Assembly: GCF_039880525.1 (NCBI RefSeq)
Contig: NZ_CP156989.1
Coordinates: forward strand, 1,240,001 to 1,304,000
Source of the DNA: Agrococcus sp. ProA11
GTDB lineage: Bacteria; Actinomycetota; Actinomycetes; Actinomycetales; Microbacteriaceae
Length of the DNA stretch: 64,000 nt
Reading direction: 5' to 3'
Shown here: positions 5,086 to 16,729 of the stretch, in pieces
Layout of the letters: every line of letters starts with the position of its first letter
Numbering within the stretch: position 1 is the stretch's first letter
The notes under the pieces: generated by a model
What the model was told of the DNA's origin: nothing
What the model saw: the letters and a program-made list of their open reading frames with translations, nothing else
Database searches by the model: none
Made by a program: the position numbers and the translations under genes

Positions 5086-5157
5086 GGGCGATTGGCGCAG
5101 CGGTAGCGCGCTTCCCTGACACGGAAGAGGTCACTGGTTCGAACCCAGTATCGCCCA
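5086..5157 (+). tRNA. tRNA-Val(GAC), integration target
   Basis: A 72-nt cloverleaf with acceptor GGGCGAT/ATCGCCC and anticodon loop CTGACAC (anticodon GAC); CCA follows in the DNA (5158-5160). Its last 25 bases plus CCA (5133-5160) recur exactly at 14659-14686, so the present 3' end was supplied or restored by the integrated element. Confidence 0.96.
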
Positions 5158-5160
5158 CCA
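5133..5160 (+). repeat. attL core (28-bp direct repeat)
   Basis: T-arm, acceptor strand and CCA of tRNA-Val(GAC). It is identical to 14659-14686; the base before the repeat already differs (C at 5132, T at 14658). Confidence 0.93.
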
Positions 5161-5162
5161 CG

Positions 5163-5187
5163 AAACCCCCGGTTTTCCGGGGGTTTT
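5163..5187 (+). terminator. Element-borne terminator of tRNA-Val
   Basis: AAACCCCCGG (5163-5172) pairs with CCGGGGGTTT (5177-5186) around a TTTT loop, three bases after CCA. It differs in sequence from the hairpin after attR (14689-14714), so it came in with the element and replaces the original terminator. Confidence 0.85.
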
Positions 5188-5205
5188 CGCTTGCCCGGGA
5201 GGGCG

Positions 5206-5223
5206 CGTGCAATACCCGTGCAA
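5206..5223 (+). repeat. Arm-type integrase site, left
   Basis: CGTGCAATACCCGTGCAA, present in the same orientation at 14511-14528. Each 18-mer contains two CGTGCAA words 11 bases apart, one helical turn. It lies 46 bases inside attL. Paired arm sites on both sides of a core are typical of tyrosine integrases; the role is inferred. Confidence 0.75.
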
Positions 5224-5294
5224 CATCTCCGCGGCTGTCACGAACGAGGCTAGGGGCTTGATCCCGCACCGGCGTGTCGCGGTACCGTCACACC

Positions 5295-5453
5295 ATGCCT
5301 GACCCGCTCGACGAGCTCGACGACCGCTGCGAAGCGTGCGGCGTCCTCATCTACCGAGACACCTGCCAGAACTGCGGACACGTCCACGAGTTCCCAGCAC
5401 ACGCCGACAAGCCCGACGACGGCGAAGTGCCAAGCATCGGCGGCTGGCAGTGA
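5295..5453 (+). CDS. Small zinc-ribbon protein
   Basis: A 52-residue acidic protein with two CxxC knuckles (CEAC near residue 12 and CQNC near residue 24), the spacing of a compact zinc ribbon, and the tail PSIGGWQ. No specific family is recognised; such ribbons are frequent among small actinophage proteins. TTGATC (5258-5263) and GGTACC (5281-5286), 17 bases apart, stand 8 bases before the ATG, which would give a nearly leaderless mRNA like the other plus-strand genes of this arm; the -10 match is weak. It is the first gene inside the left end of the element. Confidence 0.55.
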   Translation: MPDPLDELDDRCEACGVLIYRDTCQNCGHVHEFPAHADKPDDGEVPSIGGWQ

Positions 5454-5546
5454 TGCCCGCGAAGCGCACCGGCAACGCTGGCGCCATCTAGAGTCAGAAA
5501 CGGAAGCATCAAAGCGCGGGAGAAATACGCGAACATGCCACCGCTA

Positions 5547-5575
5547 GTGACGAACTCGTAGTAAACCAGTACACT
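5547..5575 (+). promoter_or_regulatory. Promoter, leaderless transcript
   Basis: GTGACG (5547-5552), 17 bases, TACACT (5570-5575), with the ATG at 5582 only six bases after the -10 box. Transcription would begin at or next to the start codon. It drives the 61-residue protein and probably the overlapping GNAT gene. Confidence 0.6.
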
Positions 5576-5581
5576 AAAGCC

Positions 5582-5767
5582 ATGGACCTTCTCTCCACCG
5601 TGCGTTCGCAGGCGACCTCTGCCCAGCGCGGTAGCGACGGCCTGACCTCGGGTGAGCGCAAGAGGCTTGCCAATCTCCACGAGTCGCGCGAGGCTCGTCC
5701 GCACGCAGGCGCGTCCGTCATGCAGAAGCTCGCTGCACGTCGCGCCGCGCGGCGTGCCCACGCCTAG
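5582..5767 (+). CDS. Small basic protein, unknown
   Basis: A 61-residue Arg-rich protein, not recognised. The middle reads LTSGERKRLANLHESRE and the C-terminus AARRAARRAHA, suggesting a helical nucleic-acid- or partner-binding protein. It overlaps the proposed GTG start of the GNAT gene by 14 bases, so the two are likely translationally coupled. An antitoxin for an acetyltransferase toxin is possible from the arrangement, but no ribbon-helix-helix motif is evident and the idea is weak. Confidence 0.5.
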   Translation: MDLLSTVRSQATSAQRGSDGLTSGERKRLANLHESREARPHAGASVMQKLAARRAARRAHA

Positions 5768-6284
5768 CAGAGTCCGCATAGCGGTCCACGACGACCGCGC
5801 GGCTTTGATGGAGTTCGTTTGCACACAGCCTGCAAAGCAGAGTTTCGGTGTGCCGCACCCACGACCGTGGGAGTTGGTTACCCAGTCAGCGTTCAGAGAG
5901 TTGCGCCCGCCAATGCGGGATGGCTCGCAACTGTACGTCCTCGAGGAAGATGGCGTAATCGCAGGGTTGTGCAGAACCCGCCCGACTGACGACGGCGCTG
6001 TGCTCATTGCCAGCATCGCGGTGTCACACTTCGCGCGTTGCGAAGGGCGCGGTGCTGCTTTGCTCGGCGAGGTACTCGACGAGATCCAAGCGACGCGCCC
6101 TGGGGTAGACGTCATCGCTCGCATCCACTCGCGCAACGAGCCCAGCCGAAAATTGTTCCGCGCCTTCGGCTTCGAGTACGTGGAGCCCTTCGAAGGCGGC
6201 GGTTCACTCGACGTGTTCGGCCTCGTCGGGCCAGATGTTGAAGAGCAAGACAGCACGAACGGGCCAAGCACGCGCGGCTGGTAG
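5754..6284 (+). CDS. GNAT-family N-acetyltransferase
   Basis: A 176-residue protein with a GNAT fold. The acetyl-CoA-binding motif A is seen as ARCEGRGAALL (R-x-x-G-x-G/A), preceded by the strand ASIAVSHFA and followed by motif B, NEPSRKLFRAFGF, where the family has N-xx-A-xx-L-Y-x-x-x-G-F. The acceptor is unknown. The GTG at 5754 starts just before the first strand; an ATG at 5808 would remove that strand. Located in the accessory left arm of the element next to the attachment site, where satellites and prophages often carry cargo. It could modify a host or phage protein or a drug; nothing in the sequence decides. Confidence 0.75.
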   Translation: MPTPSRVRIAVHDDRAALMEFVCTQPAKQSFGVPHPRPWELVTQSAFRELRPPMRDGSQLYVLEEDGVIAGLCRTRPTDDGAVLIASIAVSHFARCEGRGAALLGEVLDEIQATRPGVDVIARIHSRNEPSRKLFRAFGFEYVEPFEGGGSLDVFGLVGPDVEEQDSTNGPSTRGW

Positions 6285-6287
6285 GCG

Positions 6288-6623
6288 CTACGCCCTCGAC
6301 GCGTGTAGCCGAGGACGCGCGGGCCTTCCACGCTCAAACGCGACAGGCGGAGGCTTCTGCGGAGGCACCACGAGCGCCGGCCCACGATCACCACCAGCCA
6401 ACGCACGCCCGGTCGCACGCTCATACAAGGCCAGGCACGCCGTATGCGCTTCATCGAGACTCGACCAGTAGCCCAGCAGCCTCCGTCGCGCCCTGTCCGG
6501 ATTCGCCGTCACAGCCCTGTAGAACGGCTCCTGACGGACGCCAAGCCACACTAGCCGGACGACAGCGAGCGGCTGCCCATCGAGCGGGTGCAACACATCC
6601 CACTCGACAGGCCTCAACGTCAC
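6288..6623 (-). CDS. Phage-type hypothetical protein
   Basis: A 111-residue protein; function not recognised. Its core has VRLVWLGVRQEPFYRAV, then NPDRARRRLLGYWSS and DEAHTACLALYERATGR, with a Pro/Arg-rich tail. Small proteins with a Trp-rich strand followed by a GYW motif and an AxxAxxxYE helix are, from memory, common in actinophages. The GTG at 6623 is preferred: the 54 residues before it look like noncoding translation and overlap the divergent gene at 6684. The stop lies 3 bases from that of the convergent GNAT gene. Confidence 0.5.
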   Translation of the reverse strand: MTLRPVEWDVLHPLDGQPLAVVRLVWLGVRQEPFYRAVTANPDRARRRLLGYWSSLDEAHTACLALYERATGRALAGGDRGPALVVPPQKPPPVAFERGRPARPRLHASRA

Positions 6624-6646
6624 AGCCGCAAATCTAGGCGCGACGG

Positions 6647-6677
6647 CTGACGCGGCGCGGCTGCTACGGCCTACTCT
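6647..6677 (+). promoter_or_regulatory. Promoter, leaderless transcript
   Basis: CTGACG (6647-6652) and TACTCT (6672-6677), 19 bases apart, with the ATG at 6684 six bases after the -10. The arrangement matches that at 5547-5575, including the distance from -10 to ATG. Confidence 0.45.
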
Positions 6678-6683
6678 TGAACC

Positions 6684-6920
6684 ATGACATCCGACGATAA
6701 GCAACCCGCCGAGGCGACCGGTCACATTCGATATGGGGGCCGCAATTACAACGCGCCCGCCCGAGAAATCGAAGCAGTGATTCAAGACATGAAGACCGCC
6801 CAGCCCGGATCGTCGCGGATGTTCTCAGTCGATGACGGCAACGGCCCCGACTTCCTCTTTTGGACGTTCGGAGCGCCAATCAGTTTCCACATGTGGGAAG
6901 CCCCGACGCACAACAACTAA
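6684..6920 (+). CDS. Small hypothetical protein
   Basis: A 78-residue protein of unknown function with a conserved-looking body (GHIRYGGRNYNAP, then AREIEAVIQDMKTA, then GPDFLFWTFGAPISFHMW). Mixed beta/alpha content, no membrane segment and no cysteines. The start follows a promoter-like sequence by six bases. It is transcribed divergently from the gene at 6623 and converges on the long minus-strand operon that ends at 7104. Base composition is notably more AT-rich than in host genes. Confidence 0.5.
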   Translation: MTSDDKQPAEATGHIRYGGRNYNAPAREIEAVIQDMKTAQPGSSRMFSVDDGNGPDFLFWTFGAPISFHMWEAPTHNN

Positions 6921-7103
6921 GGCAACCAGGGGGGAGTCCGCTCAAAGCCTCTTCGCCGGGACCTCCGGGGCTTGCCCGTTTTCACACACGGGGTGAAATC
7001 CACACCTGAGGTCGATCAAGCCAGTGCCTTGCTGCGGCTGAGAGAGCGGCCAACGAGGTACGAAACCGCTTTCACACACGCGCTTTCGCACTGCGAATCG
7101 GCA
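6921..7103. other. Noncoding gap with direct repeats
   Basis: Between the convergent ends of the 78-residue gene and the terS operon. It contains two copies of TTTCACACACG (6980-6990 and 7070-7080), 90 bases apart. A plus-strand open frame runs through from 6972 but lies antisense to the better-supported minus-strand genes and is not taken as coding. Confidence 0.5.
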
Positions 7104-7355
7104 TCAGAGGCTCGTCGGATCGAATGGGGCATCAGGGATCAGTTCGGAGCTCGTAGACAACTTCTCAGGATCAATGCCCCGCCGTGCAGCCCAGACGAGA
7201 CGTGCCGCACGCCACGCCTCGAACTCCTCCATCCAGCCCTCCCACGCCCGCACACGAGCCCGGATCGGCTTCGACGTGTCATCCGCCCACCCCGGCAAGC
7301 TGTCCGGCGACAGCGCGTCTGGGACGTTGCTGCCGATCGGCTTTCTGCGCCTCAT
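7104..7355 (-). CDS. Small hypothetical protein downstream of terS
   Basis: An 83-residue protein, last gene of the long operon. Its ATG overlaps the terS stop (ATGA), so it is probably co-translated. It has a Pro-rich N-terminus (DALSPDSLPGWADD), a Trp-rich helix (ARVRAWEGWMEEFEAWRAARLVW) broken at its middle, and an acidic tail (SELIPDAPFDP). No family is recognised. Position right after the small terminase subunit suggests a packaging or helper-interaction role, but this is inference. Confidence 0.6.
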   Translation of the reverse strand: MRRRKPIGSNVPDALSPDSLPGWADDTSKPIRARVRAWEGWMEEFEAWRAARLVWAARRGIDPEKLSTSSELIPDAPFDPTSL

Positions 7356-7684
7356 GGCTGGTACACGCCACGGACGCCACGCGAGGCCGGCAGGCCGTCC
7401 TCCTCGAGCCCAGGCACCTTCAGCGTGGCGAGCATTCGAGCGAGCGCCAGTCGCTGCTGACGGATCTCCGCGATAGCCGGATGCAGACGCTTCCCCTGAG
7501 GAGACGCGAGCATCTGCCCGTCCTTCTCCACCTGCTTCCGAAGCGACGTGATCGTGTCCCGCATCCGGCACGCTTCCTCGAGTTGCGCGGCCTCGTGTTC
7601 GGGTAGTTCAAACTCGTCTGTGACGGCTTTCCACAGCTTCCGACCCTGGGCATCCAGCCCTACAGGGGTGCGCATTCCGTTCAT
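7352..7684 (-). CDS. terS: Phage terminase small subunit, P27-like
   Basis: A 110-residue protein of the type actinophages use as small terminase subunit, the DNA-recognition part of the packaging motor. Seen: LDAQGRKLWKAVTDEF at the N-terminus, an EAAQLEEACRMRDTITSL helix, and the C-terminal HPAIAEIRQQRLALARMLATL, the most characteristic part of the family. Start ATG at 7684 has AGGAG about six bases upstream. No large subunit, portal or capsid gene exists in the element. In staphylococcal islands a private TerS redirects the helper motor to the island genome; the same role is inferred here. It is preceded by a 164-base gap with its own hairpin and two 10-bp repeats. Confidence 0.72.
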   Translation of the reverse strand: MNGMRTPVGLDAQGRKLWKAVTDEFELPEHEAAQLEEACRMRDTITSLRKQVEKDGQMLASPQGKRLHPAIAEIRQQRLALARMLATLKVPGLEEDGLPASRGVRGVYQP

Positions 7685-7848
7685 TACCTGCTCCTATCGC
7701 AGTTTCAAGGGTCGATCGTTTGAGATCCAGAGAGAGACACGGCCTAGCACCGGAGGCGCTATGGGACGTTTCAAGGGGGTCCCCCGCCTGGTGGTCATAG
7801 CGGTTGGTGATGGTCGGGCCGTCGTGTTGACCGGCCCGACCGTGGTTG
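7685..7848. other. Gap before terS with repeats
   Basis: The only sizeable break in the minus-strand operon. It holds a hairpin (7812-7841) and two direct copies of GTTTCAAGGG (7702-7711 and 7768-7777; CCCTTGAAAC on the coding strand), 66 bases apart. These could be sites for separate control of terS; no convincing -10 box was found. Confidence 0.45.
7812..7841 (-). terminator. Hairpin after the 48-residue gene
   Basis: A perfect 10-bp stem, GGTCGGGCCG (7812-7821) with its complement (7832-7841), and a 10-base loop, beginning 8 bases past the TAA at 7849. No U-tract; it may attenuate transcription into terS. Confidence 0.5.
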
Positions 7849-7995
7849 TTACGGAGTGGTGCGGAACAGTCCGCGGACGAAGGCGGTCATGTCGTCGTCT
7901 GCGGCTGTCGTGTGTCCGTTGTCCTCAGCGCCAGCCTCGGCTTCCGAGTCGGGGAAGAGTGAGCGGACGAATGCGCGCATGTCGTCGTCGTTCAT
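7849..7995 (-). CDS. 48-residue protein with duplicated motif
   Basis: A 48-residue acidic protein whose ATG overlaps the upstream stop (ATGA). It is an internal duplication: DDDMRAFVRSLF near the N-terminus and DDDMTAFVRGLF near the C-terminus, joined by a Glu/Ala linker. The rest of the protein is only linker, so the motif is probably the functional unit, for example a short binding peptide used twice. Family not recognised. Short length makes it easy to miss, but the coupling and the repeat support it as real. Confidence 0.65.
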   Translation of the reverse strand: MNDDDMRAFVRSLFPDSEAEAGAEDNGHTTAADDDMTAFVRGLFRTTP

Positions 7996-8822
7996 GCGAG
8001 TGAGCCCGCGGCACTGGGGGTCTTGAACCGGTATGCGGAGCCCATGGCGGCCTGGTCGGATTCCTGGCTGCTGAGGTCGGCTCGTGTCTGTGCCGCGTTT
8101 GCCTTTTCGACGCGTTCTTCGGTTTCGGCGGGCGTTGCGAGGCTGATCGTGTAGCCGCGCCTGACGCCTTCCCAGTGGGTGACCTTGGTGCGGGTCGTCT
8201 GGCCGGCTTCGACTTCGGCGCGTGAGAGGTCGCCGGTGTCGAAGCGCGCGTGCGTCTTGCCGGTGCGTGCGGCGTTGCTGAGTCCGAGGGCGTAGATCAG
8301 CTGCCCGATTGAGAGATCGATCTGCTCGAGGGCTGTGATGGCGGTGCGCGCGGTGACGTTGGCTGCTGCGACTTCGAGGGACGCCCGCTGGATGTCGGGG
8401 CTTGCGAGGTCGTGGATGCCTGCTGCGGTGAGCGTGGCGTACGCGTCGGTGAGTGCCTGTCCTGCGTCGGCGTAGGGCTTCTGGAAGACGGTGACGAGCT
8501 GGTCGATGTTCTCTCGCAGGGTCGCGGTGAGGCGGTCGCGTGCGGCGTTGGAGAGGCCTTCGAATGCGGTCATGTTCGACAGTTGCTTGGCGAGTGCGGC
8601 GCGCTGCACGGCGGGGTCGGTGAGCGGGTCGCGGCCTTCGGTGATCGCGTCGGCGAGTGCTTCTCCGACGCTGACGCTGCCGAGGTCGATGCTGCTTGCG
8701 TCGTCGATGAGCTGGATCTGCTGTTCGATGCGCTTGCGGAGCGCGGCGGGGATGGTCGCGCGGTGGTCGTCTGCGGCTTTGAGGACGTTGGTTGCGATGT
8801 CGGGGAGGATGCGAGCGGTCAT
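7992..8822 (-). CDS. Hypothetical protein, 276 residues
   Basis: A largely alpha-helical protein, not recognised. N-terminal MTARILPDIATNVL, helices such as AALRKRIEQQIQLIDD and GLSNAARDRLTATLRENI, a second GLSNAARTGKTHARF copy near residue 190, and a basic C-terminal third ending FKTPSAAGSLA. The phrase GLSNAAR occurs twice about 100 residues apart. An AAAGG ribosome-binding site lies 7-8 bases before the ATG. Size and place in the operon would suit a structural or scaffold-like protein, but the sequence does not show it. Confidence 0.65.
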   Translation of the reverse strand: MTARILPDIATNVLKAADDHRATIPAALRKRIEQQIQLIDDASSIDLGSVSVGEALADAITEGRDPLTDPAVQRAALAKQLSNMTAFEGLSNAARDRLTATLRENIDQLVTVFQKPYADAGQALTDAYATLTAAGIHDLASPDIQRASLEVAAANVTARTAITALEQIDLSIGQLIYALGLSNAARTGKTHARFDTGDLSRAEVEAGQTTRTKVTHWEGVRRGYTISLATPAETEERVEKANAAQTRADLSSQESDQAAMGSAYRFKTPSAAGSLA

Positions 8823-8837
8823 GGTGTGCCTTTCGGG

Positions 8838-9329
8838 CTAGAGGTAGTTGATGGGGTTGAGGTCGTCGGCCTTGGCGCGCTTGCGGCGCGGTGCCGGGGT
8901 GCAGTCTTTGCAGTAAGCGACTGCGGGTTTGGAGCGGAGCAGCATGTGGTTGCAGCCGCCGGCGCATGCGACGTAGGGGGTGCCGGGTCGGACGCGCCTG
9001 CCGGAGTTGATGACTGCGGGGCGGGCCGTGCTGGTTCGTGCCGTGTCGGGTTCGCCGTCGAGCGTGTCTGCGGGCTCGTCAGGCGCGTGTTCGTCGCCTT
9101 GCCCGCGTTCCGCTTGCGCTTCCCGCTCGAGGCCGTCTGCGGCGATCTGGCGGCGTTCCGCGGGCGTCGACTGCCGGTAGAGGCCGAGGTCGATCCACTC
9201 GTCGAGCCAGCGGGGCGGGTTGGGCCGTCGCAGGTCGAGGAGTCCGCGGGTGGTGAGCTTGTCGAGCTCTGCGAGGATCGCCTTCGATGGGACGACGGGC
9301 GTGTGCTTCGTGATCGTCATCGTGTCCAT
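8838..9329 (-). CDS. Hypothetical protein with zinc-binding cysteines
   Basis: A 163-residue protein beginning one base after the upstream stop. The N-terminal half is helical (ILAELDKLTTRGLLDLRR; RWLDEWIDLGLYRQST), followed by an acidic linker and a C-terminal knuckle with CAGGC and CKDC 16 residues apart, then basic PAPRRKRAK. That is a C4 zinc ribbon with a basic tail, suggesting DNA or RNA contact. Alternative start ATG at 9320. No family recognised. Confidence 0.65.
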   Translation of the reverse strand: MDTMTITKHTPVVPSKAILAELDKLTTRGLLDLRRPNPPRWLDEWIDLGLYRQSTPAERRQIAADGLEREAQAERGQGDEHAPDEPADTLDGEPDTARTSTARPAVINSGRRVRPGTPYVACAGGCNHMLLRSKPAVAYCKDCTPAPRRKRAKADDLNPINYL

Positions 9330-9330
9330 G

Positions 9331-10131
9331 TCAGGCCTGGTTCAGGAAGCGGAGCGCGCCGGTGGCGTTGTTCACGAGCAGCACTGACCAGCCGTTGCCG
9401 GTTGAGCCGGATGTGATGCCGGTGACCTTGGGGGCGACGAGAGTTGGCGACTGGAGGGCCGTGTTGCCGTTCTTGACGTTGTTGAGGTCGGCCTGGACGG
9501 CGTTGACGGATGAGACGGTCGCGCGCCCGTTCGCGGTCGACTGCGCCGCGTTAGCCGCAGCCTGCGCAGTCCCGGCCCTATCCCACGCAGCATCCGCGAG
9601 GTTCCACGCCGACTGACCCTTAGCGTCAGCATCATCAGCCTTCGTCACACCAAGATCCGCGCGCGACTTCGCCGCCGCAGCCTCCGACCGCGCCGCCATC
9701 GCATTGTCATACCCAGACTGCCCCTTACGGTCAGCCTCCTTCACAGCCGGCCCTAGCGACGTCATCACGCCATCGATGGGGGCTTCGACGCCGAGCTTGC
9801 CGCGCGTCACCCCGTCGAAGGTGGCGTTCGCGATGCCGGTGACGTTCGTGAGGAACTTGACTGTGCCGTCAGCGTCCCAGATGCCTTCGGGCCGGATGTA
9901 GGTGCTTCCTGCTCCGACCCTGCCGCCGTTCGCTGCAGACATCGAGGCTGCGCCTGCAGTGACTGATCCAGCGTCCTCGATGTGCACGCCTGCGGGGATG
10001 CGGACAGCGATGCCGCTGCCGTGGGAGATGGATGCGTTGTTGAGCGGCGATGCGGTCTCGAGCATGCGCACGCGCTCTTCGAGTCGGCGGATGACGCGCC
10101 CGAAGTCTTCGCGGTCGTGCATTCCGGTCAT
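9331..10131 (-). CDS. Minor-tail-like coiled-coil protein
   Basis: A 266-residue protein; its ATG overlaps the preceding stop (ATGA). The N-terminus (DFGRVIRRLEERVRMLETASPL) is a short coiled coil, followed by NNASISHGSGIAVRI and IRPEGIWDADGTVKFL, a pattern seen in actinophage minor tail and receptor-binding proteins. Residues about 130-220 are Ala-rich heptads with a repeated (D/E)ADxKGQS word (EADRKGQSGYDNA, DADAKGQSAWNLA), and the end is a Gly/Asn/Ser-rich globular segment. A trimeric fibre is plausible. A tail protein in an element without capsid genes is unusual for a classical satellite. Confidence 0.6.
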   Translation of the reverse strand: MTGMHDREDFGRVIRRLEERVRMLETASPLNNASISHGSGIAVRIPAGVHIEDAGSVTAGAASMSAANGGRVGAGSTYIRPEGIWDADGTVKFLTNVTGIANATFDGVTRGKLGVEAPIDGVMTSLGPAVKEADRKGQSGYDNAMAARSEAAAAKSRADLGVTKADDADAKGQSAWNLADAAWDRAGTAQAAANAAQSTANGRATVSSVNAVQADLNNVKNGNTALQSPTLVAPKVTGITSGSTGNGWSVLLVNNATGALRFLNQA

Positions 10132-10397
10132 GAGGTTGCCTTCCGGTTGATGTAGATGAGTTCGTGCTTGCCGCGGCAGTAGGTGCCGCAGCCGGACGCG
10201 AAGAGCAGCGAGTCCCGGTCGCGTGCTTCGGTCTCGGTGGCCCAGAGCGTGAATGTCGCAGCTCGGCCGCACCAGGCGACGAGCGCCCAGTCGCCGGTGC
10301 CGGTGATCCACTTCGCGGGCGGGTACTTACAGCGGATGAAACCGCGATTGGTGGCATGCTCGCCGCGAAGGCACCGACACCGGCTCCACTCGGTCAT
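10128..10397 (-). CDS. Small cysteine-rich protein
   Basis: An 89-residue protein coupled by ATGA overlap on both sides. Cysteines at about positions 7, 9, 23, 43, 70 and 74 (SRCRCLRG, CGTYC) plus His residues could bind one or two zinc ions. The core WALVAWCGRAATFTLWATETEARDRD resembles a compact beta-sheet. Function not recognised. Confidence 0.6.
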   Translation of the reverse strand: MTEWSRCRCLRGEHATNRGFIRCKYPPAKWITGTGDWALVAWCGRAATFTLWATETEARDRDSLLFASGCGTYCRGKHELIYINRKATS

Positions 10398-10558
10398 GCT
10401 CGGCCCCGCTTCCTGGCGAGCACTGGGCAGGTGTCGTCGTGGTAGATGCGGAGCGTGTAGATGCCGTCGCCGTCACGGATGAGTCGCTGGTAGGCGAGGC
10501 AGTCGTCGCAGCCGCCGTCCATGCGCGTTTCGAGGTAGTCGTCGAAGCGGATGCTCAT
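10394..10558 (-). CDS. Small CxxC protein
   Basis: A 54-residue protein between the ATPase gene and the cysteine-rich gene, overlapping both by four bases. It shows GGCDDCLAYQRL and a later DDTCPVLARKRGRA, so three cysteines and a His could make an incomplete zinc site. Start at 10558 (MSIRFDDYLE) follows from the ATGA overlap. Unknown function. Confidence 0.6.
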   Translation of the reverse strand: MSIRFDDYLETRMDGGCDDCLAYQRLIRDGDGIYTLRIYHDDTCPVLARKRGRA

Positions 10559-11757
10559 GCGGCCATCTCCTTGCACGAGCGAGTGTGCTTACCGGTCATG
10601 CCGCACGCGGTGCAGTAGCCGGGGTCGTCCGTAACGGCGCGTGTAACGCCCACACCCATTGCTACTTGTGTTACGTGTGTATCGTTTTCCGCCGCGTTCG
10701 TGACACTCGTAACACTCGTAACGGGGGGTGTGTGCGTTACTTCGGCGTTACGGATGGATTGGAACGCGCCTCGGGTTGCTCTCGAGATGCGCCCACTGTC
10801 TGCGAGCCGGTTGAGGTAGACGCGCCCCTGGCCCTTTGGCACACTCAGTGCCTCATCCGCTTCCACGTCCTGAGCTGTCACCGCGCCTGGCGCATTGTCG
10901 ACGAACTCGAGCACGGCGGTCGAGCGGTCGCCCAGGTTGCGCGGGTCACGGTTCAGGATGTCCTGCACGGTCAGTGTCGAGTCGCCCAGGCACACGGCCT
11001 TGCCAATCGTGGTGAACTCGCCGCCGCCAACGGGAACGTCGACGCTGTCCACGCGGAACGCCAATGATGGCTTTACGGCGGAGTAGTTCGACTTCTCGAT
11101 CGTGAGGATTCGGTTATCGGTTTGGTCGTCTACCGCGAGCACCATGAGCGACCGCGCAATGTCGCGGAAGCCGTGGGAGCCCGATACCTTGTCGCCGGCC
11201 TGCCCTGCGCTTTTGTTGAAGTGCATAACGCAAATGACGGCTACCTCAAGCTCCGCTGCCATAGATGCGAGCGGGTCAAGGTTCCTGCGCACGTCCTCGA
11301 GCCGGTGGCTGTCGCCATGCATGAGGCTGATGATTGGGTCGATGATGAGCACGCGCGCGCCCGTTGACACGATCTCGTCGCGGATCGCCGCTAGATCCTC
11401 GGCCAGCGTCGGTGACGTGATCCAGTCTCGGTTCTCTTCGCCTTGCACTCTGATGCCGGTAATCGCGATAACCCTGCTGAGGTTCGCGTCTGCGACCGTG
11501 AGGCGAGGGGCGAGCATCTTCGACAGGTCGTCCTCGCCCGCGATCATCGCGACGTTCACAGGCTGCCCGTGGTAGTCGCCCTCGAGGGTTCCACGCGTCA
11601 GCCCGGATACGTACCAAGCGAGAATCGTCGACTTCGCGATGCCCGCCGTACCGGCCAAGATCGTGATGACTCCCAGCGGCACCTGATCCCGCACTGCCCA
11701 TTTCTGCCGCTCGATCGGAACGTGCGCGAGCGTCGTGCTCATTAGTTGCCGACTCAT
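10555..11757 (-). CDS. RecA/RepA-fold ATPase (AAA_25-like), replication candidate
   Basis: A 400-residue protein with a RecA-like ATPase core of the RepA/AAA_25 type used by phages and plasmids as replicative helicase or primase partner. The P-loop is at residues 36-43 but reads GTAGIAKS, with Ala for the usual Gly before Lys. Walker B is VLIIDPIISL, followed by VICVMHFNKS as a sensor segment and GSHGFRDIARS as the arginine-rich element. The C-terminal third contains a winged-helix-like stretch, a Val-Thr-rich region and a final zinc knuckle (CTAC then C). Start at 11757 is fixed by the ATGA overlap; an internal ATG at 11742 is possible. Probably replicates the excised element. Confidence 0.7.
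   Translation of the reverse strand: MSRQLMSTTLAHVPIERQKWAVRDQVPLGVITILAGTAGIAKSTILAWYVSGLTRGTLEGDYHGQPVNVAMIAGEDDLSKMLAPRLTVADANLSRVIAITGIRVQGEENRDWITSPTLAEDLAAIRDEIVSTGARVLIIDPIISLMHGDSHRLEDVRRNLDPLASMAAELEVAVICVMHFNKSAGQAGDKVSGSHGFRDIARSLMVLAVDDQTDNRILTIEKSNYSAVKPSLAFRVDSVDVPVGGGEFTTIGKAVCLGDSTLTVQDILNRDPRNLGDRSTAVLEFVDNAPGAVTAQDVEADEALSVPKGQGRVYLNRLADSGRISRATRGAFQSIRNAEVTHTPPVTSVTSVTNAAENDTHVTQVAMGVGVTRAVTDDPGYCTACGMTGKHTRSCKEMAA
10630..10752. repeat. Cluster of GTTAC/GTAAC words (iteron-like)
   Basis: Seven copies of GTTAC or its complement GTAAC in 123 bases of the 3' part of the ATPase gene, at 10631, 10643, 10670, 10709, 10719, 10736 and 10747. Two sit in a 10-bp tandem (CACTCGTAA at 10704 and 10714). 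They encode Val-Thr pairs using GTT and GTA codons, which the host rarely uses, so the DNA words themselves may be selected. A replication origin inside the rep gene is a possible reading. Confidence 0.4.
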
Positions 11758-12191
11758 GCGGCACCTCCAATCGAACCGGCGAGCGCCAGCGCAAAATATT
11801 CGGGGGAGTGTTCGAGAACGCCGGCAGGCATCGCGTCGATTGCTTTGTCGAGGCGTGCCTGCACGCGGGCGGCGTTCTCGTCGGGGAATGCCTTGGCCCA
11901 CAGGCGGTTGCTTGTCCACTCGGCTTGCTTCACGCGCTCGACCTGTGCCGCGATTCCGGCGTCGAATCCGGCCAGGTAAATTGCGCCTGCGTGCGGCGAC
12001 ATCTGGCGGAGTCGATCGAGCCGCAGTGTTCCCGACACGAGGCCCGTCCAGACGGCTTCGAGAGTGTCGTCGATTTCGCGCAAACGGGTCGCGTGGTCGG
12101 GTCGATCGGCGCTAGACTGGAGGTGCGTGAACTTGTGAGCGGCCCCAGAGTTTGACGGCTTGGGGCCGTTCCCCTTTTCGTGATGGGTCAT
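11754..12191 (-). CDS. Hypothetical protein, 145 residues
   Basis: A helical protein coupled by ATGA overlaps to the HTH gene before it and the ATPase gene after it. Seen: a polar N-terminus, RLREIDDTLEAVWTGLVSG, LDRLRQMSPHAGAIYLAGF, QVERVKQAEWTSNRLW, and ARVQARLDKAIDAMP. No catalytic motif or known family. Its place directly before the ATPase suggests an accessory replication or regulatory protein; this is inference from context. Confidence 0.65.
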   Translation of the reverse strand: MTHHEKGNGPKPSNSGAAHKFTHLQSSADRPDHATRLREIDDTLEAVWTGLVSGTLRLDRLRQMSPHAGAIYLAGFDAGIAAQVERVKQAEWTSNRLWAKAFPDENAARVQARLDKAIDAMPAGVLEHSPEYFALALAGSIGGAA

Positions 12192-12385
12192 GCGGCACCA
12201 CCGACGTACTGCAGCGACTGACCCCAGCGTTCGAGGCTTGCTGGGTTGATGCGGATGAGTCGCGGCCCGAAGCGTCGGGCGTCGAGTGTTCCGTCTGAGA
12301 TGCGGCGCCTAATCGTCTTTTCGCTCATTCCGTACTGCATGGCTGCGTTTCGGATCGTCGGCCAGGTTTCGGCAGTGGTGTTCAT
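12188..12385 (-). CDS. xis: Excisionase-like HTH protein
   Basis: A 65-residue winged-HTH protein of the MerR/excisionase type: WPTIRNAAMQYGMSEKTIRRRISDGTLDARRFGPRLIRI. The helix-turn-helix (AAMQYGMSEKTIRRRI) and following strand pair match HTH_17-type DNA-binding domains used by Xis proteins and small phage regulators. Start at 12385 has GGGGA about seven bases upstream; an open extension to 12529 has no ribosome-binding site. First gene of the eleven-gene operon; it could promote excision, control the operon, or both. Confidence 0.72.
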   Translation of the reverse strand: MNTTAETWPTIRNAAMQYGMSEKTIRRRISDGTLDARRFGPRLIRINPASLERWGQSLQYVGGAA

Positions 12386-12406
12386 CGCGTTCCCCTTTAT
12401 TCGGAA

Positions 12407-12449
12407 ACGGACACAGCTCCGCCAAGAGGGGGCGCAAACTTGTGTCCGT
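12407..12449 (-). promoter_or_regulatory. Inverted repeat, candidate operator
   Basis: ACGGACACA (12407-12415) and its exact complement TGTGTCCGT (12441-12449), separated by 25 bases, lie just upstream of the operon's first gene. A TTGGCG stands within the spacer on the minus strand with a poor -10 (GAATAA) 17 bases on. Likely binding site for the element's XRE or HTH protein; inferred. Confidence 0.45.
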
Positions 12450-12595
12450 GGTGGAGCCCGTAGGACGGGCGTACAAGAGCGCCACCTCGCTGGTGGCTGT
12501 TGGTGCGCGGCGACGTGTCCCGGTTCCACTTCGGGGCGTGCGTCGTCGTGCGGTTGTCCGCTAAACGCGGGTCATGCCTGCCGACAAGCGGGCAT

Positions 12596-12628
12596 AAAAA
12601 AAGCCCGGACGGGATTACCGTTCGGGCT
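12596..12628 (-). terminator. Intrinsic terminator 1 (minus strand)
   Basis: On the minus strand an 11-bp stem (outer GCCCG/CGGGC, one G-U pair, loop TAATC) is followed by seven T. It is a textbook rho-independent terminator facing transcripts from the integrase/XRE side. Confidence 0.85.
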
Positions 12629-12696
12629 CAACTCACGCGGGGTGAGTGGTCAGTGCTGCGTCATCGCAGGAAGTCGTGGTCGACTCGAGGGCATAG

Positions 12697-12725
12697 AAAA
12701 ACCCCCGGCGTCAAGCTCGGGGGTT
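12697..12725 (-). terminator. Intrinsic terminator 2 (minus strand)
   Basis: An AACCCCC/GGGGGTT stem (12700-12706 and 12719-12725) extended by one G-C pair, followed on the minus strand by TTTTT. Confidence 0.8.
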
Positions 12726-12756
12726 GGGTCTAGCTGAGGGCACAGATGTACTGCGT
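12697..12756 (-). ncRNA. Possible small RNA
   Basis: A promoter at 12763-12791 would start transcription near 12756, and terminator 2 would end it at 12697, giving an RNA of about 60 nt with no start codon with a ribosome-binding site. Read-through to terminator 1 would give about 160 nt. Entirely inferred from flanking signals. Confidence 0.35.
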
Positions 12757-12762
12757 AGTCCA

Positions 12763-12791
12763 AGTATGCCCTACTACGTCCGTCAGTGCAA
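12763..12791 (-). promoter_or_regulatory. Minus-strand promoter between terminators
   Basis: Reading the minus strand: TTGCAC (12791-12786), 17 bases, CATACT (12768-12763). Spacing is ideal. It lies between terminators 3 and 2 with no gene immediately downstream. Confidence 0.55.
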
Positions 12792-12807
12792 GTCGGCACG
12801 ACAAAAC

Positions 12808-12834
12808 GAAAGAGCCTCCGCTCGGAAGGCTCTT
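12808..12834 (-). terminator. Hairpin terminator 3 (minus strand)
   Basis: AAGAGCCT (12810-12817) and AGGCTCTT (12827-12834) form an 8-bp stem; on the minus strand TTTCGTTTTG follows. It is the first of the three met by transcripts leaving the XRE gene, whose stop is at 12904. Confidence 0.65.
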
Positions 12835-12903
12835 CGCTCTGGTGCCCGTCTGGACGCACTAGTAGAGCACGCCACTAGTTTAGCACGCCGTGGCGTGTCC
12901 CGT

Positions 12904-13248
12904 CTAAATGTGTCGGCTCATCTCGCGTTCAGTGACGAGCCGATCCCATGCACGCCCAATCACTGCTGTCTCTCGACCGCTTGTCCGCCACTCCGACACG
13001 ACGGGGCGCGAGTCCTCGAACCAGGAAACGATCGAGACATCAAAGAATGCGGACACCAACTCAAGCTCGTGGAGCGTGAATCGCTTCCGGCCGGCCCACA
13101 AGTCGCGGGCGCGTTGCGTGGAGATTTCCAGCATCTCCCTCAGCACGGTCGAGTTAGCGATGTCCCAACAAACAAAACACGCGCGGATGTTCAGGTTCAC
13201 GTTCTTGAGTCGGGCGTCAGCCTCGGGGTTGTCGATAGTGTTGTTCAT
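12904..13248 (-). CDS. XRE-type HTH regulator
   Basis: A 114-residue DNA-binding protein. The middle reads NSTVLREMLEISTQRARDLWAGRKRFTLHELELVSAFFDVSIVSWFED, the helix pattern of a Cro/CI-type domain (recognition helix TQRARDLWAG, then HELELVSAFFDV). The N-terminus contains two Cys (ACFVCWD). AGGA stands 12 bases before the ATG. It is a candidate repressor of the element, analogous in position to the CI/Stl-type regulators beside integrase genes. Its transcript would be stopped by three terminators before the excisionase operon, so the two units are separated. Confidence 0.68.
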   Translation of the reverse strand: MNNTIDNPEADARLKNVNLNIRACFVCWDIANSTVLREMLEISTQRARDLWAGRKRFTLHELELVSAFFDVSIVSWFEDSRPVVSEWRTSGRETAVIGRAWDRLVTEREMSRHI

Positions 13249-13326
13249 GGCCTTGGTTCCTTTCGTGGGTCTTGGCCGGCCCTCGCCGCGCTGCTATCGC
13301 GTCGGGGGCGTTCCTCTTGCTGAGGT

Positions 13327-14496
13327 CTATTGAGCGCCGCTGCTATCCAGCGCGGCCATCCTTCGCGCGAGCTCGAAGTCGCGGCCAGCGGTGTGCTGGT
13401 AACGCATCGCAGCCGAGACAGTCGAGTGCCCGAGCCGTGCCTGCAGTTCCTTCAGCGTTGCGCCCGCGAGCGCCGCTCTCGTCGCCCCGAAGTGGCGCAG
13501 TGCGTGCCAGGGCATATCGGGCCGTCCAGCCGCCTTGCGCGCAGGGTAGAAGTGCTTGACGAGCGAAGACTGCGGGAGGTGGCTGATGCCGTCAGTAGCA
13601 GGGAACAGCAGAGCGTCAGGGGAGGGGTCGACGTGCTCTCGCATGTGCGCCTCGAGGGCAGGTGCAATGTGCGGCGGCACAGGCACGACTCGCACGCCGG
13701 CTGCGCTCTTGGGCTGCCCCACGCTGTAACCCTCACCAGTGACCTGAGTGACAGCACGTTCGATGTTGATGAGAGTGAGGTGACCGGCGGCATCGTCCAC
13801 GGTGCGCACATCCTTGCGGCGTAGTTCCGTGAGTTCCCCGTACCGTGCCCCTACCCACGCGGCTAGGAGCACCGCGGCCCTCAGCCGGTCGGGCATCGCT
13901 TCCGTGATCGCGGCAAGCTCCGTCGCGGTGGGGGGTTCGACCTTGCGGCCAGTGCTCGAGTTCTGAGCGCCCCGAATGATGCATGGGTTCGCGGTCAGTC
14001 GCCCATCTGTCACCGCAGTGGACATCATCGACTTGAGCAATGAGTAGGCGCGCGCTGCGAGCGTCTTGCGGCCCGACTTCACAAGTCCCGCGTACCAAGC
14101 GCGAACCGACTCGGGCGTGATCGCTGACATGCGCTGCGGAGCCAGGGGCGCAAGGGCAGTGTCGAGCAGGCGCAGATACTCCACTCGAGTCCGGTCGCGG
14201 AGGGGTTCGCCGTTGCGGTTCGTGCGGGTCTCGATCCAAGTGCGTCCGTAGGCGTCGAGCGTGTCGGTCGCGGGCTTCGCTGGGGTCGGTCTGCGGGCTG
14301 CGTGAGCCTGCCATTGACCGGATGCCAACTCCGCCTGTCGGGCCGCAAGCCAGGCTCTCGCGTCGGTCACCCCGGCGAATGTAGAAGGGGCGGTGTAACG
14401 CTGTCCGTCATGCCCCATGTAGCTGGCCTGGAAGCGCCCCGAGGGGAGCTTGCGGACGGCCCCGAAGGACTCACGCCTCTTACGCTTCGTCGCCAT
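13327..14496 (-). CDS. int: Tyrosine-type site-specific integrase
   Basis: A 389-residue phage integrase. An N-terminal arm-binding domain (FQASYMGHDGQRY, AP2-like) and a core-binding SAM-like domain precede the catalytic domain. The catalytic set is complete: Arg218 in GARYGEL, His331-x-x-Arg334 in HALRHFGATR, His357 in LGHST and the nucleophile Tyr366 in RYQHT. The start at 14496 (MATKRKRRES) is chosen over 14517 because of its basic N-terminus. It lies 162 bases from attR and is transcribed inward. It should recombine the tRNA-Val 3' end. Confidence 0.92.
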   Translation of the reverse strand: MATKRKRRESFGAVRKLPSGRFQASYMGHDGQRYTAPSTFAGVTDARAWLAARQAELASGQWQAHAARRPTPAKPATDTLDAYGRTWIETRTNRNGEPLRDRTRVEYLRLLDTALAPLAPQRMSAITPESVRAWYAGLVKSGRKTLAARAYSLLKSMMSTAVTDGRLTANPCIIRGAQNSSTGRKVEPPTATELAAITEAMPDRLRAAVLLAAWVGARYGELTELRRKDVRTVDDAAGHLTLINIERAVTQVTGEGYSVGQPKSAAGVRVVPVPPHIAPALEAHMREHVDPSPDALLFPATDGISHLPQSSLVKHFYPARKAAGRPDMPWHALRHFGATRAALAGATLKELQARLGHSTVSAAMRYQHTAGRDFELARRMAALDSSGAQ

Positions 14497-14658
14497 GCTT
14501 CGCCCCCCGTCGTGCAATACCCGTGCAATATCTAGTGTCTAGTGCTGTCCATTTGCGGACAACAGTGACTCTAGCGGGTAGGAGTGCTATCCGGCATGGA
14601 TAGGCGCAAATCGGGCTGAAATGCTGAGCGGATGAGGCATCCACACAGTATCGTAAAT
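14497..14658. other. Right attachment arm region
   Basis: No gene. Contains the right arm-type repeat, a tandem TCTAGTG pair (14531-14537, 14538-14544) and GTCC/GGAC half-sites (14547-14560). Probably the integrase/excisionase binding arm and integrase promoter. Confidence 0.55.
14511..14528 (+). repeat. Arm-type integrase site, right
   Basis: Identical in sequence and orientation to 5206-5223. It ends 130 bases before the attR core. Confidence 0.75.
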
Positions 14659-14686
14659 ACTGGTTCGAACCCAGTATCGCCCACCA
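14659..14686 (+). repeat. attR core (28-bp direct repeat)
   Basis: Copy of the tRNA-Val(GAC) T-arm, acceptor strand and CCA. Only the 3' fragment of the tRNA is here; it is not a gene. Confidence 0.93.
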
Positions 14687-14773: not shown

Positions 14774-16729
14774 GTGACCACCGGATTCGATCTCTTCACC
14801 GACCGTGCCATCGTCGCTATGCGCGTCGACGGCGAGCTGCAGGACCTCGCCCGCGAGGTGACCGAGACGCAGACGGTCGAGCCCGTCACGATCGACAGCC
14901 CGGACGGACTCGACATCCTCCGTCACTCCGCCGCGCACGTGCTCGCGCAGGCGGTGCAGCGCGTGAACCCCGAGGCGAAGCTCGGCATCGGCCCGCCCAT
15001 CCAGGACGGCTTCTACTACGACTTCGACCTGAGCGAGCCGTTCTCCAGCGATGACATGAAGTCGCTCGAGAAGGAGATGCAGCGCATCGTCAAGGCGGGA
15101 CAGCGCTTCGTGCGCCGGGCCGTGACCGACGACGAGGCGCGCACCGAGCTCGCGGACGAGCCGTACAAGCTCGAGCTCATCGGGCTGAAGGGCGGCGCGG
15201 CCAGTGCCGCGGAGGGCGCCTCGGTCGAGGTGGGGGCGGGCGAGCTCACCATCTACGACAACGTCGACCCGAAGACGGGCGAGGTGCAGTGGAAGGATCT
15301 CTGCCGCGGCCCGCACCTGCCCTCCACGCGGCAGATCGGCAACGGGTTCGCGCTCACGCGCGTTGCCGGGGCCTACTGGCGCGGCAAGACCGACCGGCCG
15401 CAGCTGCAGCGCATCTACGGCACCGCCTGGCCGACCAAGGACGAGCTGCGCGCCCACCAGGAGCGGTTGGAGGAGGCCGCGAAGCGCGACCACCGCAAGC
15501 TCGGTCGCGAGCTCGACCTGTTCTCGTTCCCGGAGGAGATCGGCTCCGGCCTCTCGGTCTGGCACCCGCGCGGCGCGATCGCCCGCGGCGAGATGGAGCA
15601 GCACGCCCGCAAGCGCCACATCGAGCAGGGCTACAGCTACGTCTACACCCCGCACATCACGAAGCAGGATCTCTTCGCGACCTCCGGTCACCTCGAGACC
15701 TATGCCGACGGCATCTGGCCGCCCATCCACATGGACGAGGAGCGCGACGAGGCGGGCAACGTCACCAAGCAGGGCGTCGACTACTACCTCAAGCCGATGA
15801 ACTGCCCGATGCACATCCTCGTCTACAAGGATCGCTCTCGCAGCTACCGCGACCTGCCGCTGCGGCTGGCCGAGAACGGCACCGTCTACCGCAACGAGCT
15901 CTCCGGCGCGCTGCACGGCCTCACGCGTGTGCGCGGCTTCACGCAGGACGACGCCCACCTGTTCGTCACGCCCGAGCAGCTCGAGGAGGAGACCACCAAG
16001 GTCCTCGAGTTCGTGCTGTCGCTGCTGGGCGACTTCGGTCTCACCGACTTCCGTCTCGAGCTCTCGATGCGCGACGACGAGAAGGGGAAGTGGATCGGCG
16101 ACGAGGCAATCTGGGAGACGGCGACGGATGCGCTGCGGCGCGTCGCCAAGAGCTCCGGGCTCGAGGTCGTGGAGGAGCCGGGCGAAGCGGCGTTCTACGG
16201 GCCGAAGATCGACCTCAAGGTCACCGACGCCATCGGTCGCTCGTGGCAGCTCTCGACCGTGCAGCTCGACTTCAACCTGCCGGAGCGCTTCGATCTGGAG
16301 TTCACCTCCTCGGACGGCTCGAAGCAGCGACCGATCATGATCCACCGCGCGCTGTTCGGCTCGATCGAGCGCTTCTTCGCCATCCTGCTCGAGCACTACG
16401 CGGGCGCCTTCCCGGTCTGGCTCGCGCCCGTGCAGGTCGTCGGCGTGCCCGTCGCCGAGGACTTCGCCGACTACCTGGAAGAGATCGCCGGCAGGCTGCG
16501 TGCCAAGGGCGTGCGCGTGGAGGTCGACCGCTCCGACGAGCGCATGCAGAAGAAGATCCGCAGCCACACGCTCCAGAAGGTGCCCTTCCAGCTCATCGCC
16601 GGCGCCAAGGACCAGGAGGCGGGCAGCGTCTCGTTCCGGTTCCGTGACGGCACGCAGGACAACGGCGTGCCCGTCGACGAGGCGATCGCGCGCATCCTGG
16701 AGGCCATCGAGACGAAGGCGCACGTGTGA
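14774..16729 (+). CDS. thrS: Threonine-tRNA ligase
   Basis: A 651-residue class II synthetase charging tRNA-Thr. The editing-domain zinc/His motif begins at [11 protein letters not shown] (His51, His55); class II motif 2 is [22 protein letters not shown], with the catalytic-domain entry at KPMNCPMHI; motif 3 is [19 protein letters not shown]; the anticodon domain closes the protein. The N-terminal TGS domain is short: only its second half ([14 protein letters not shown]) is visible after the GTG start, which I recall as usual for this family of actinobacteria. The stop overlaps the next gene's GTG by 4 bases. Confidence 0.97.

Follow-up and report, generated by a model that had tools for sequence, protein, structure and literature searches.

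The stretch analysed here (the window; 64,000 nt of Agrococcus sp. ProA11, contig NZ_CP156989.1, positions 1,240,001 to 1,304,000) comes from an actinobacterial genome consisting of one contig of 2.67 Mb, and carries an integrated element of 9.5 kb with the characteristics of a phage satellite. The element is bounded by 28-bp direct repeats, which are identical at 28 of 28 positions. The first, the attachment (att) core at 5133..5160 (plus strand), forms the 3′-end of a tRNA-Val(gac) gene (5086..5160, plus strand; Rfam 70 bits), the integration target, which is intact despite the insertion. The distal core (14659..14686, plus strand) lies 87 bp ahead of the thrS frame (ORF, open reading frame, 14774–16729). 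A 23-bp repeat is found inside each end (5206..5228 and 14511..14533, plus strand; 22/23 identical); the pair resembles integrase arm-type sites and is a candidate for this role. No such exact pair was found in two related elements described below, L058 and L068. The G+C content of the element is 64.6%, versus 71.2% for the remaining window.

The minus strand carries the integrase, the putative regulator and every gene as far as o83, and the left 2 kb is made up of an acetyltransferase gene and small ORFs. The tyrosine integrase (389 aa; 13327..14496) matches phrog_1 (E 5e-54) and PF00589 (E 1.4e-12). A helix-turn-helix (HTH) protein of 65 aa (12188..12385) is excisionase-like, with matches to phrog_66 (excisionase, E 2.8e-5) and HTH_17 (E 1.3e-5, slightly under the Pfam cut-off), and is 91% and 51% identical to its counterparts in the sister elements L057 and L058, respectively. 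The presumed replication protein is an AAA_25 (RepA-like) ATPase (10555..11757; AAA_25 E 9.7e-25), which is 33–37% identical to Microbacterium phage primase/helicase; the kinship is with the helicase part, and Pfam and PHROG profile searches found no primase domain in the ATPase. The terminase small subunit (TerS; 110 aa; 7352..7684) is assigned to the P27 family through phrog_1496 (E 5e-20), its score against PF05119 itself (23.4 bits) being below the cut-off of 24.7. Homology searches, including those with Pfam, PHROG and hidden Markov model (HMM) profiles, found no large terminase subunit (TerL), portal, capsid or lysis gene in the element. The preliminary description of this DNA had proposed the end repeats at tRNA-Val, the integrase, a Xis-like HTH protein, a RepA-fold ATPase, a P27-type TerS, seven 4-nt gene overlaps and the lack of TerL, portal, capsid and lysis genes, all of which we recovered.

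Phage satellites measuring about 8–20 kb include the phage-inducible chromosomal islands (PICIs) and Staphylococcus aureus pathogenicity islands (SaPIs). In keeping with satellites generally, the full virion and lysis gene set is missing from the element, by detectable homology, and integration is site-specific with an integrase of its own. In keeping with PICIs and SaPIs, it is compact (9.5 kb), occupies an att site in a tRNA gene and possesses a packaging-redirection gene of its own, TerS (terS or rpp in those islands). A capsid-forming PICI carries its own capsid, portal, protease, TerS and TerL; of these the element has TerS only.

Directly upstream of TerS lies a conserved block of approximately 55 nt (7705..7758, minus strand), which is probably a cos (cohesive-end) packaging site. 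It was recognized in seven elements, chosen by eye (that of the window, L057 and L060–L064), and consists of a GC-rich core, a pyrimidine tract, an A-rich stretch and CCCTTG or a near variant. Leave-one-out profiles returned the held-out block as the top match of its locus in seven of seven cases (E 1e-7 to 0.22, with the runner-up at 20 or above). The seven blocks score 29–41 bits, by construction, and the maximum among 1440 random windows of the same loci is 5.3; L120, which is outside the profile, scores 7.0 bits.

Part of this block is also found in phages. Viral contigs were scanned with the exact 16-mer CTCCGGGGCGGCRACC, the core of L061–L063, which yielded 78 stretches, roughly the chance expectation by our own estimate. 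The best fit to the rest of the block was given by L224, L216, L218 and L228 (15.7–23 bits; next 10.6), and these same four are the only stretches in which the core is followed, on the same strand and within 900 nt, by a match to TerL, portal or TerS. The distance from core to TerL frame is 226–256 nt, and a random position falls within 900 nt upstream of TerL at a frequency of 0.004 (109 scanned stretches). Portal HMM matches are present in all four; PHROGs confirm TerL and portal in both stretches tested (L224 and L228), with protease and capsid in L228 as well. Flanking the core on either side, the four have further bases in common with the satellite-like elements, a G-rich tract among them. 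Since L216, L218 and L228 are mutually close, the number of independent cases is closer to two than to four. L218 encodes what we read from its translation as a WhiB-like protein, which fits an actinobacterial host.

TerS was searched for in other genomes; 19 of 398 genomes of the family were matched, the window's own counted, and an 11-row TerS profile matched 28 of 396 genomes of the order. The 48 loci scanned represent these results minus three same-place repeats plus L058. The HMMs used derive from proteins of phages, prophages and some satellites; some of the loci with a capsid or tape measure match themselves contributed to the capsid and tape measure HMMs, but eight of the tape measure loci also match the tape measure of phage Footloose directly. 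TerL and portal were found in ten loci (L059, L072, L073, L074, L136, L137, L138, L141, L143 and L144), eight of which also have a capsid match. The other 38, including the window, possess no TerL within a stretch mostly reaching 10 kb to each side (for L139, only 1.0 kb downstream of TerS precedes the contig end). Integrase matches are present in 28 of the 38, and capsid matches in five (L066, L068, L128, L129 and L133), each with an integrase match too. Twenty TerL-less loci other than that of the window have paired exact repeats of at least 20 bases enclosing TerS and an integrase match, often at a tRNA or tmRNA gene. The repeat-bounded TerL-less loci span 8.4–15.9 kb, with a median of 9.98 kb when the window is included. 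No TerL or portal was found among the best 25 of 90 PHROG families matched by 94 proteins of at least 150 aa from the twenty repeat-bounded loci; in the same scan tape measure families match five of the proteins.

Close relatives of this TerS are as a rule TerL-less: no TerL is present at any of the 12 places in the family (own excluded) at which TerS is at least 40% identical, and the TerS of TerL-bearing prophages is at most 38% identical to that of the element where aligned. A TerS tree of 54 rows (the 48 loci, four phages and two Mycolicibacterium satellite phages) places it in an 11-row clade (99/88) made up exclusively of TerL-less elements, drawn from families f1, f7, f10 and f14. Across this tree the presence of TerL changes five times, versus 12.6 times for shuffled labels, with none of 500 shuffles as low; on this sequence evidence the TerL-less TerS did not arise once, yet cluster in lineages. 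The phage group L136, L141, L143 and Hum25 is nested among TerL-less rows, from which it follows that TerL was lost more than once. TerL of the Footloose type is present in five of 20 genomes examined, four of them with full prophages and G250 a weak case (27% identity). One genome, G234, contains both a TerL-less element at tmRNA (L060; TerS 70% identical) and, on another contig, a full prophage with a distant TerS (L074). When viral contigs were scanned for TerS, four distant matches were obtained, on contigs of 70–82 kb; a genome-contig scan gave one partial relative.

We interpret the element, with a probability of roughly 0.8, as an integrated phage satellite whose own TerS and cos site divert the TerL and virion of a helper. 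The paired cores in tRNA-Val, the TerS without detectable TerL or shell genes and the conserved block adjoining TerS are evident at the level of sequence; comparison with phages lends support to the cos step, and helper dependence, capsid remodeling and transfer are what we infer from the whole. Under this interpretation, infection by a helper, or its induction, would trigger excision by the integrase with the Xis-like HTH protein, and the AAA_25 ATPase would drive replication while the element makes its own TerS. TerS would bind a site of the element's own (cosB) and recruit the helper TerL, which would cut at the core (cosN). The approximately 10-kb genome would then be packed in helper virions, perhaps shrunk by a protein encoded before TerS, and after delivery to a new cell the integrase would insert it at tRNA-Val. 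On a simple view, such a satellite would keep the part cut by the helper TerL and swap the TerS-bound part along with TerS. That the element borrows a helper's packaging had been proposed in the preliminary description; this part of the proposal gains support, with the cos-like site adding a mechanism, and its label "SaPI/PICI-type" reaches too far, no divergent regulator pair having been seen.

A number of observations weigh against this interpretation. Neither excision, nor a helper, nor particles were observed. PF03354 TerL, Footloose TerL and PF04860 portal gave no match in the 2.67-Mb genome, other TerL families not having been searched genome-wide; hence no helper of these types is resident. 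(PF03354 is a weak TerL probe, because it missed a TerL in G265 that the Footloose query found.) The profile detects no cos block in L058 or in most of the remoter TerL-less loci. The window core, CCTCCGGTGCTAGGC, occurs in 25 viral stretches, none of them upstream of TerL or portal, and among 378 genomes of the family only in the window's own; the L057 core occurs in six viral stretches, likewise never upstream of TerL or portal. The four core-sharing phage stretches yielded no P27-type TerS, and so a common core need not mean a common machine. The ratio of 38 TerL-less to 10 TerL-bearing loci is no census, because the query and profile were satellite TerS and the sampling favors satellites.

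The same data bear on how packaging would proceed. A satellite packaged by the headful (pac) mechanism would need the block only as a TerS binding site, or the block might be the terS promoter or leader, and it indeed sits where a promoter or leader would. Its fit to the genome ends of phages is also weak: the physical ends of LeBron and Hum25, phages with P27-type TerS, score 4.8 bits, a value reached by 2 of the 1440 controls; Hum25 scores higher elsewhere (5.2 bits), Enceladus nearly duplicates LeBron, and the ends of Footloose are unmatched. We nevertheless consider the pac alternative unlikely, given that the ends of LeBron and Hum25 both fall at profile column 14 and that the L061–L063 core precedes TerL in four phage stretches without a detectable P27 TerS. 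The short genes before TerL in these stretches gave no match to the TerS profile, and two frames tested had no PHROG match. Searches of phages by blastn, with the window and L061 cos regions as queries, returned chance-level matches only, to Bacteroides and Erwinia phages.

Alternatively, the element might be an integrative island that is not packaged by phages at all, in which TerS or the tail-like protein serves otherwise, for example in anti-phage defense. The lack of a known helper, the accessory acetyltransferase gene and several genes of unknown function would suit such an island. The adjacency of TerS to a conserved cos-like block, the core of which, in sister elements, also occurs in phages, the tight range of element sizes and the capsid or tape measure genes of other TerL-less loci are all at odds with it, and we regard it as improbable.

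At the insertion site, the tRNA region was located in all 24 genomes of the genus. Apart from the window, a second core copy is present near the tRNA in G384 and G398. The elements of these two genomes, 9.6 kb (L057) and 8.4 kb (L058) long and in other species of the genus, have the gene order of the window; the search of related genomes for this operon at tRNA-Val, which the preliminary description had suggested, thereby returned syntenic elements in two more species. The integrase is 79% (L057) and 74% (L058) identical to that of the window, and TerS 58% and 67%. Common to the three are the integrase, the HTH protein, o145, o54, o89 and TerS. In the ATPase slot L057 has an AAA_25 protein of 23% identity and L058 a protein unmatched to that of the window, with an AAA_25 match below the cut-off; L057 gave no match to the tail-like gene. 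The three elements are therefore mosaic, the ATPase and tail modules having been exchanged. Among the 24 genomes near full-length relatives of the integrase are confined to the three element carriers; G049 has a partial relative (49%) elsewhere in its genome and 20 genomes have none. In another genus, L068 combines an integrase of 59% identity, the same tRNA and paired 29-bp repeats with a capsid gene, TerS and a tape measure gene. The empty site is represented by G332, where tRNA-Val is followed by 94 bp and then thrS; in G119, G049 and G399 thrS lies 0.9–1.2 kb from the tRNA. Nonsynonymous divergence (dN) is below synonymous divergence (dS) in 14 of 14 pairs covering six genes, from 0.06 versus 0.36 (hth, L057) to 0.42 versus 0.68 (o54, L058), with dS close to saturation in several pairs. 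In a further genus, L135 (11685–15976) possesses TerS and a tape measure gene adjoining a tRNA-Val/Gly/Cys/Val cluster like that of the window; its HTH gene is 52% identical and no repeats were found.

That the element is a decayed prophage, which lost its structural genes and kept int, rep and terS by chance, would agree with a TerS from a phage family, an ATPase resembling phage primase/helicase, a remaining gene that is weakly tail-fiber-like and the repeated TerL losses implied by the nested phage TerS group, and is nonetheless very improbable in view of the same plan and site in several species, the intact frames, the low dN, the clustering of TerL-less TerS and the recurrence of sizes near 10 kb. 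We consider this explanation largely refuted, no close relatives with TerL, portal and capsid having been found at the same site; at 17 of the 24 genus sites thrS lies outside the 1.5-kb flank to which they were resolved, and further elements may be present there. The preliminary description had named homologues beside TerL, portal and capsid genes at this site as the mark of decay; the four elements at this tRNA that were read from end to end, that of the window, L057, L058 and L068, are all without TerL or portal matches.

The pac-type SaPIs and PICIs are compact, with an integrase and a replication gene, and hallmarks of PICIs and SaPIs are a divergent regulator pair (stl/str) or AlpA, together with a rep/pri replication module. 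The element is likewise compact, with int, a presumed replication gene and its own TerS. It differs in that its packaging site is cos-like and no divergent regulator pair was seen: integrase and regulator are on one strand, and the Pfam list for the HTH protein contains HTH_17 and no AlpA. As interpreted here it would work like a TerS-carrying PICI; a claim of SaPI/PICI membership goes too far. In the pac-type islands the island's own TerS redirects packaging, according to PMC10690885. The same paper describes the Streptomyces satellites MulchRoom and MiniFlayer as encoding TerS, TerL, portal and capsid, i.e., as the capsid-forming type; these are actinobacterial like the element and differ from it in having TerL, portal and capsid genes. 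In PMC10654092 a candidate PICI of Mycobacterium is defined by an integrase and a major capsid gene. Such candidates and phiRv1/phiRv2 resemble the element in being actinobacterial, some residing at a tRNA with a tyrosine integrase and some having a helicase and terminase; the major capsid gene was not found in the element, which consequently falls outside that definition. Mycolicibacterium phages Alyssa1, JSForest1/2 and Maddie1 (OR387110, OR387115, OR387116 and OR387118) are satellite-like, at about 11 kb, and share with the element a TerS of the same family (34–36% identity), an integrase and a TerS near the genome end; the records of Alyssa1 and JSForest2 have one short "terminase" gene annotated. 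Unlike the element, these two possess an integrase of the serine type and genes for head-tail adaptor, stopper, major capsid and tape measure; the element has a tyrosine integrase, and adaptor, stopper, capsid and tape measure were not found in it. A conference report mentions "novel mycobacteria satellite phages" of a College of William and Mary group (PMC12908700), which we infer to be the Mycolicibacterium records from Williamsburg. Mycobacterium phages LeBron/Enceladus and Arthrobacter phage Hum25 also have a P27-type TerS (33–35%) near the genome end and, unlike the element, are complete tailed phages, with TerL, portal and capsid annotated in LeBron and Hum25.

The element fits none of the Mycolicibacterium 11-kb phages, the Mycobacterium candidate PICIs or the Streptomyces satellites, and belongs to a widespread, little-described family. 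The remark in the preliminary description that such satellites are little described outside Firmicutes, Proteobacteria and a few Streptomyces systems needs the addition of two groups on record: candidate PICIs of Mycobacterium, which have a capsid gene, and the 11-kb Mycolicibacterium satellite phages. Among the matches listed in the open-licence literature, nothing was found on capsid-less TerS satellites of this order, nor on what tape measure proteins encoded by satellites do, which is no proof of absence. The family would extend capsid-less, TerS-carrying satellites across a wide range of Actinobacteria; the satellites that we found described in this group carry capsid genes. Its defined packaging site would open helper prediction and transfer assays to direct testing.

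The use of a cos site and the possession of an own TerS are packaging strategies usually kept apart. As a tentative proposal, and one we hold to be somewhat doubtful in its entirety, a widespread actinobacterial satellite family may unite the two. In this proposal cosN would match that of helper phages, so that the helper TerL cuts, and the binding part and TerS would be the satellite's own; the slot before TerS would hold either a capsid protein or an unrelated reshaper of the helper capsid; and the satellite would dictate tail length too, since 11 of the 38 TerL-less loci bring a tape measure (L062–L065, L068–L070, L076, L126, L132 and L135). These members raise the question of whether tails, like heads, are remodeled by satellites. 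Five tape measure loci (L064, L065, L068, L126 and L132) are within repeat-bounded elements, and the tape measure of the TerL-less loci is homologous to that of full phages.

In L066 and L068 the slot before TerS is occupied by an HK97-type capsid gene; elsewhere its products are 178–333 aa long and form several groups without detectable kinship. In L061–L065, five elements at different places, the slot protein (178–201 aa) is a recognizable family of 27–45% identity, three members of which gave no PHROG match below E 0.01. In the window the slot encodes a 276-aa protein (o276; 7992..8822, minus strand), whose only relative seen is a protein in L058 (29% identity over approximately 80 residues); none was found at E 0.001 in 248 other genomes of the family, viral contigs and phage records. 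A single-sequence AlphaFold2 model of it is all-helical and poor (pLDDT 46). P4 Sid and PLE TcaP are capsid-remodeling proteins, and by analogy with these the 276-aa protein is, with low confidence, a candidate for such a function. Between it and TerS an acidic protein of 48 aa (o48; 7849..7995, minus strand) with a duplicated DDDMxAFVRxLF motif was recognized by ORF and repeat search; judged by eye, similar small ORFs occupy the corresponding position in L058, where the product ends in LVRDLFTK, and in L060, where RDLY occurs twice.

The remaining genes are mostly small. On the minus strand are o145 (145 aa; 11754..12191; 69% identity in L057, 48% in L058), o54 (54 aa; 10394..10558; 80%, 58%) and o89 (89 aa; 10128..10397; 64%, 54%), all conserved, a 163-aa protein (8838..9329; 42% and 46% over part of its length) and o83 (83 aa; 7104..7355; 38% in L058). 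The 4-nt overlaps join hth/o145, o145/ATPase, ATPase/o54, o54/o89, o89/tail, o276/o48 and TerS/o83. The tail-like protein of the preliminary description (266 aa; 9331..10131, minus strand) does have a match, a weak one to a tail fiber family (phrog_13481, E 0.0013), and a relative in L058 (E 1e-5); neither it nor the 163-aa protein gave a tblastn match to phages (50,697 records for the former), and megablast of the whole element against phages gave none. The putative regulator (114 aa; 12904..13248, minus strand) had been labeled XRE, a label we could not substantiate, as it has no significant family match (best PHROG matches E 0.015 and 0.059); the gene is kept in both sister elements (36% L057, 41% L058).

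At the left end, a GNAT acetyltransferase (5754..6284, plus strand, start codon uncertain; PF00583 E 3e-10) represents cargo, with no relative in L057 or L058 at E 0.001. It is accompanied by a zinc-ribbon-like ORF of 52 aa (5295..5453, plus strand; weak Pfam zinc-ribbon matches; 53% L057) and by accessory ORFs of 61 aa (5582..5767, plus strand) and 78 aa (6684..6920, plus strand), both without a family match, and 111 aa (6288..6623, minus strand; 61% L057). In L134 a 660-bp direct repeat (13699 and 19341) flanks TerS, with related short repeats in L121 and L126; our guess is that it is part of chromosomal genes. Three consecutive terminator-like inverted repeats are visible by eye (12583–12890) in the gap that separates the HTH gene of the window from the putative regulator.

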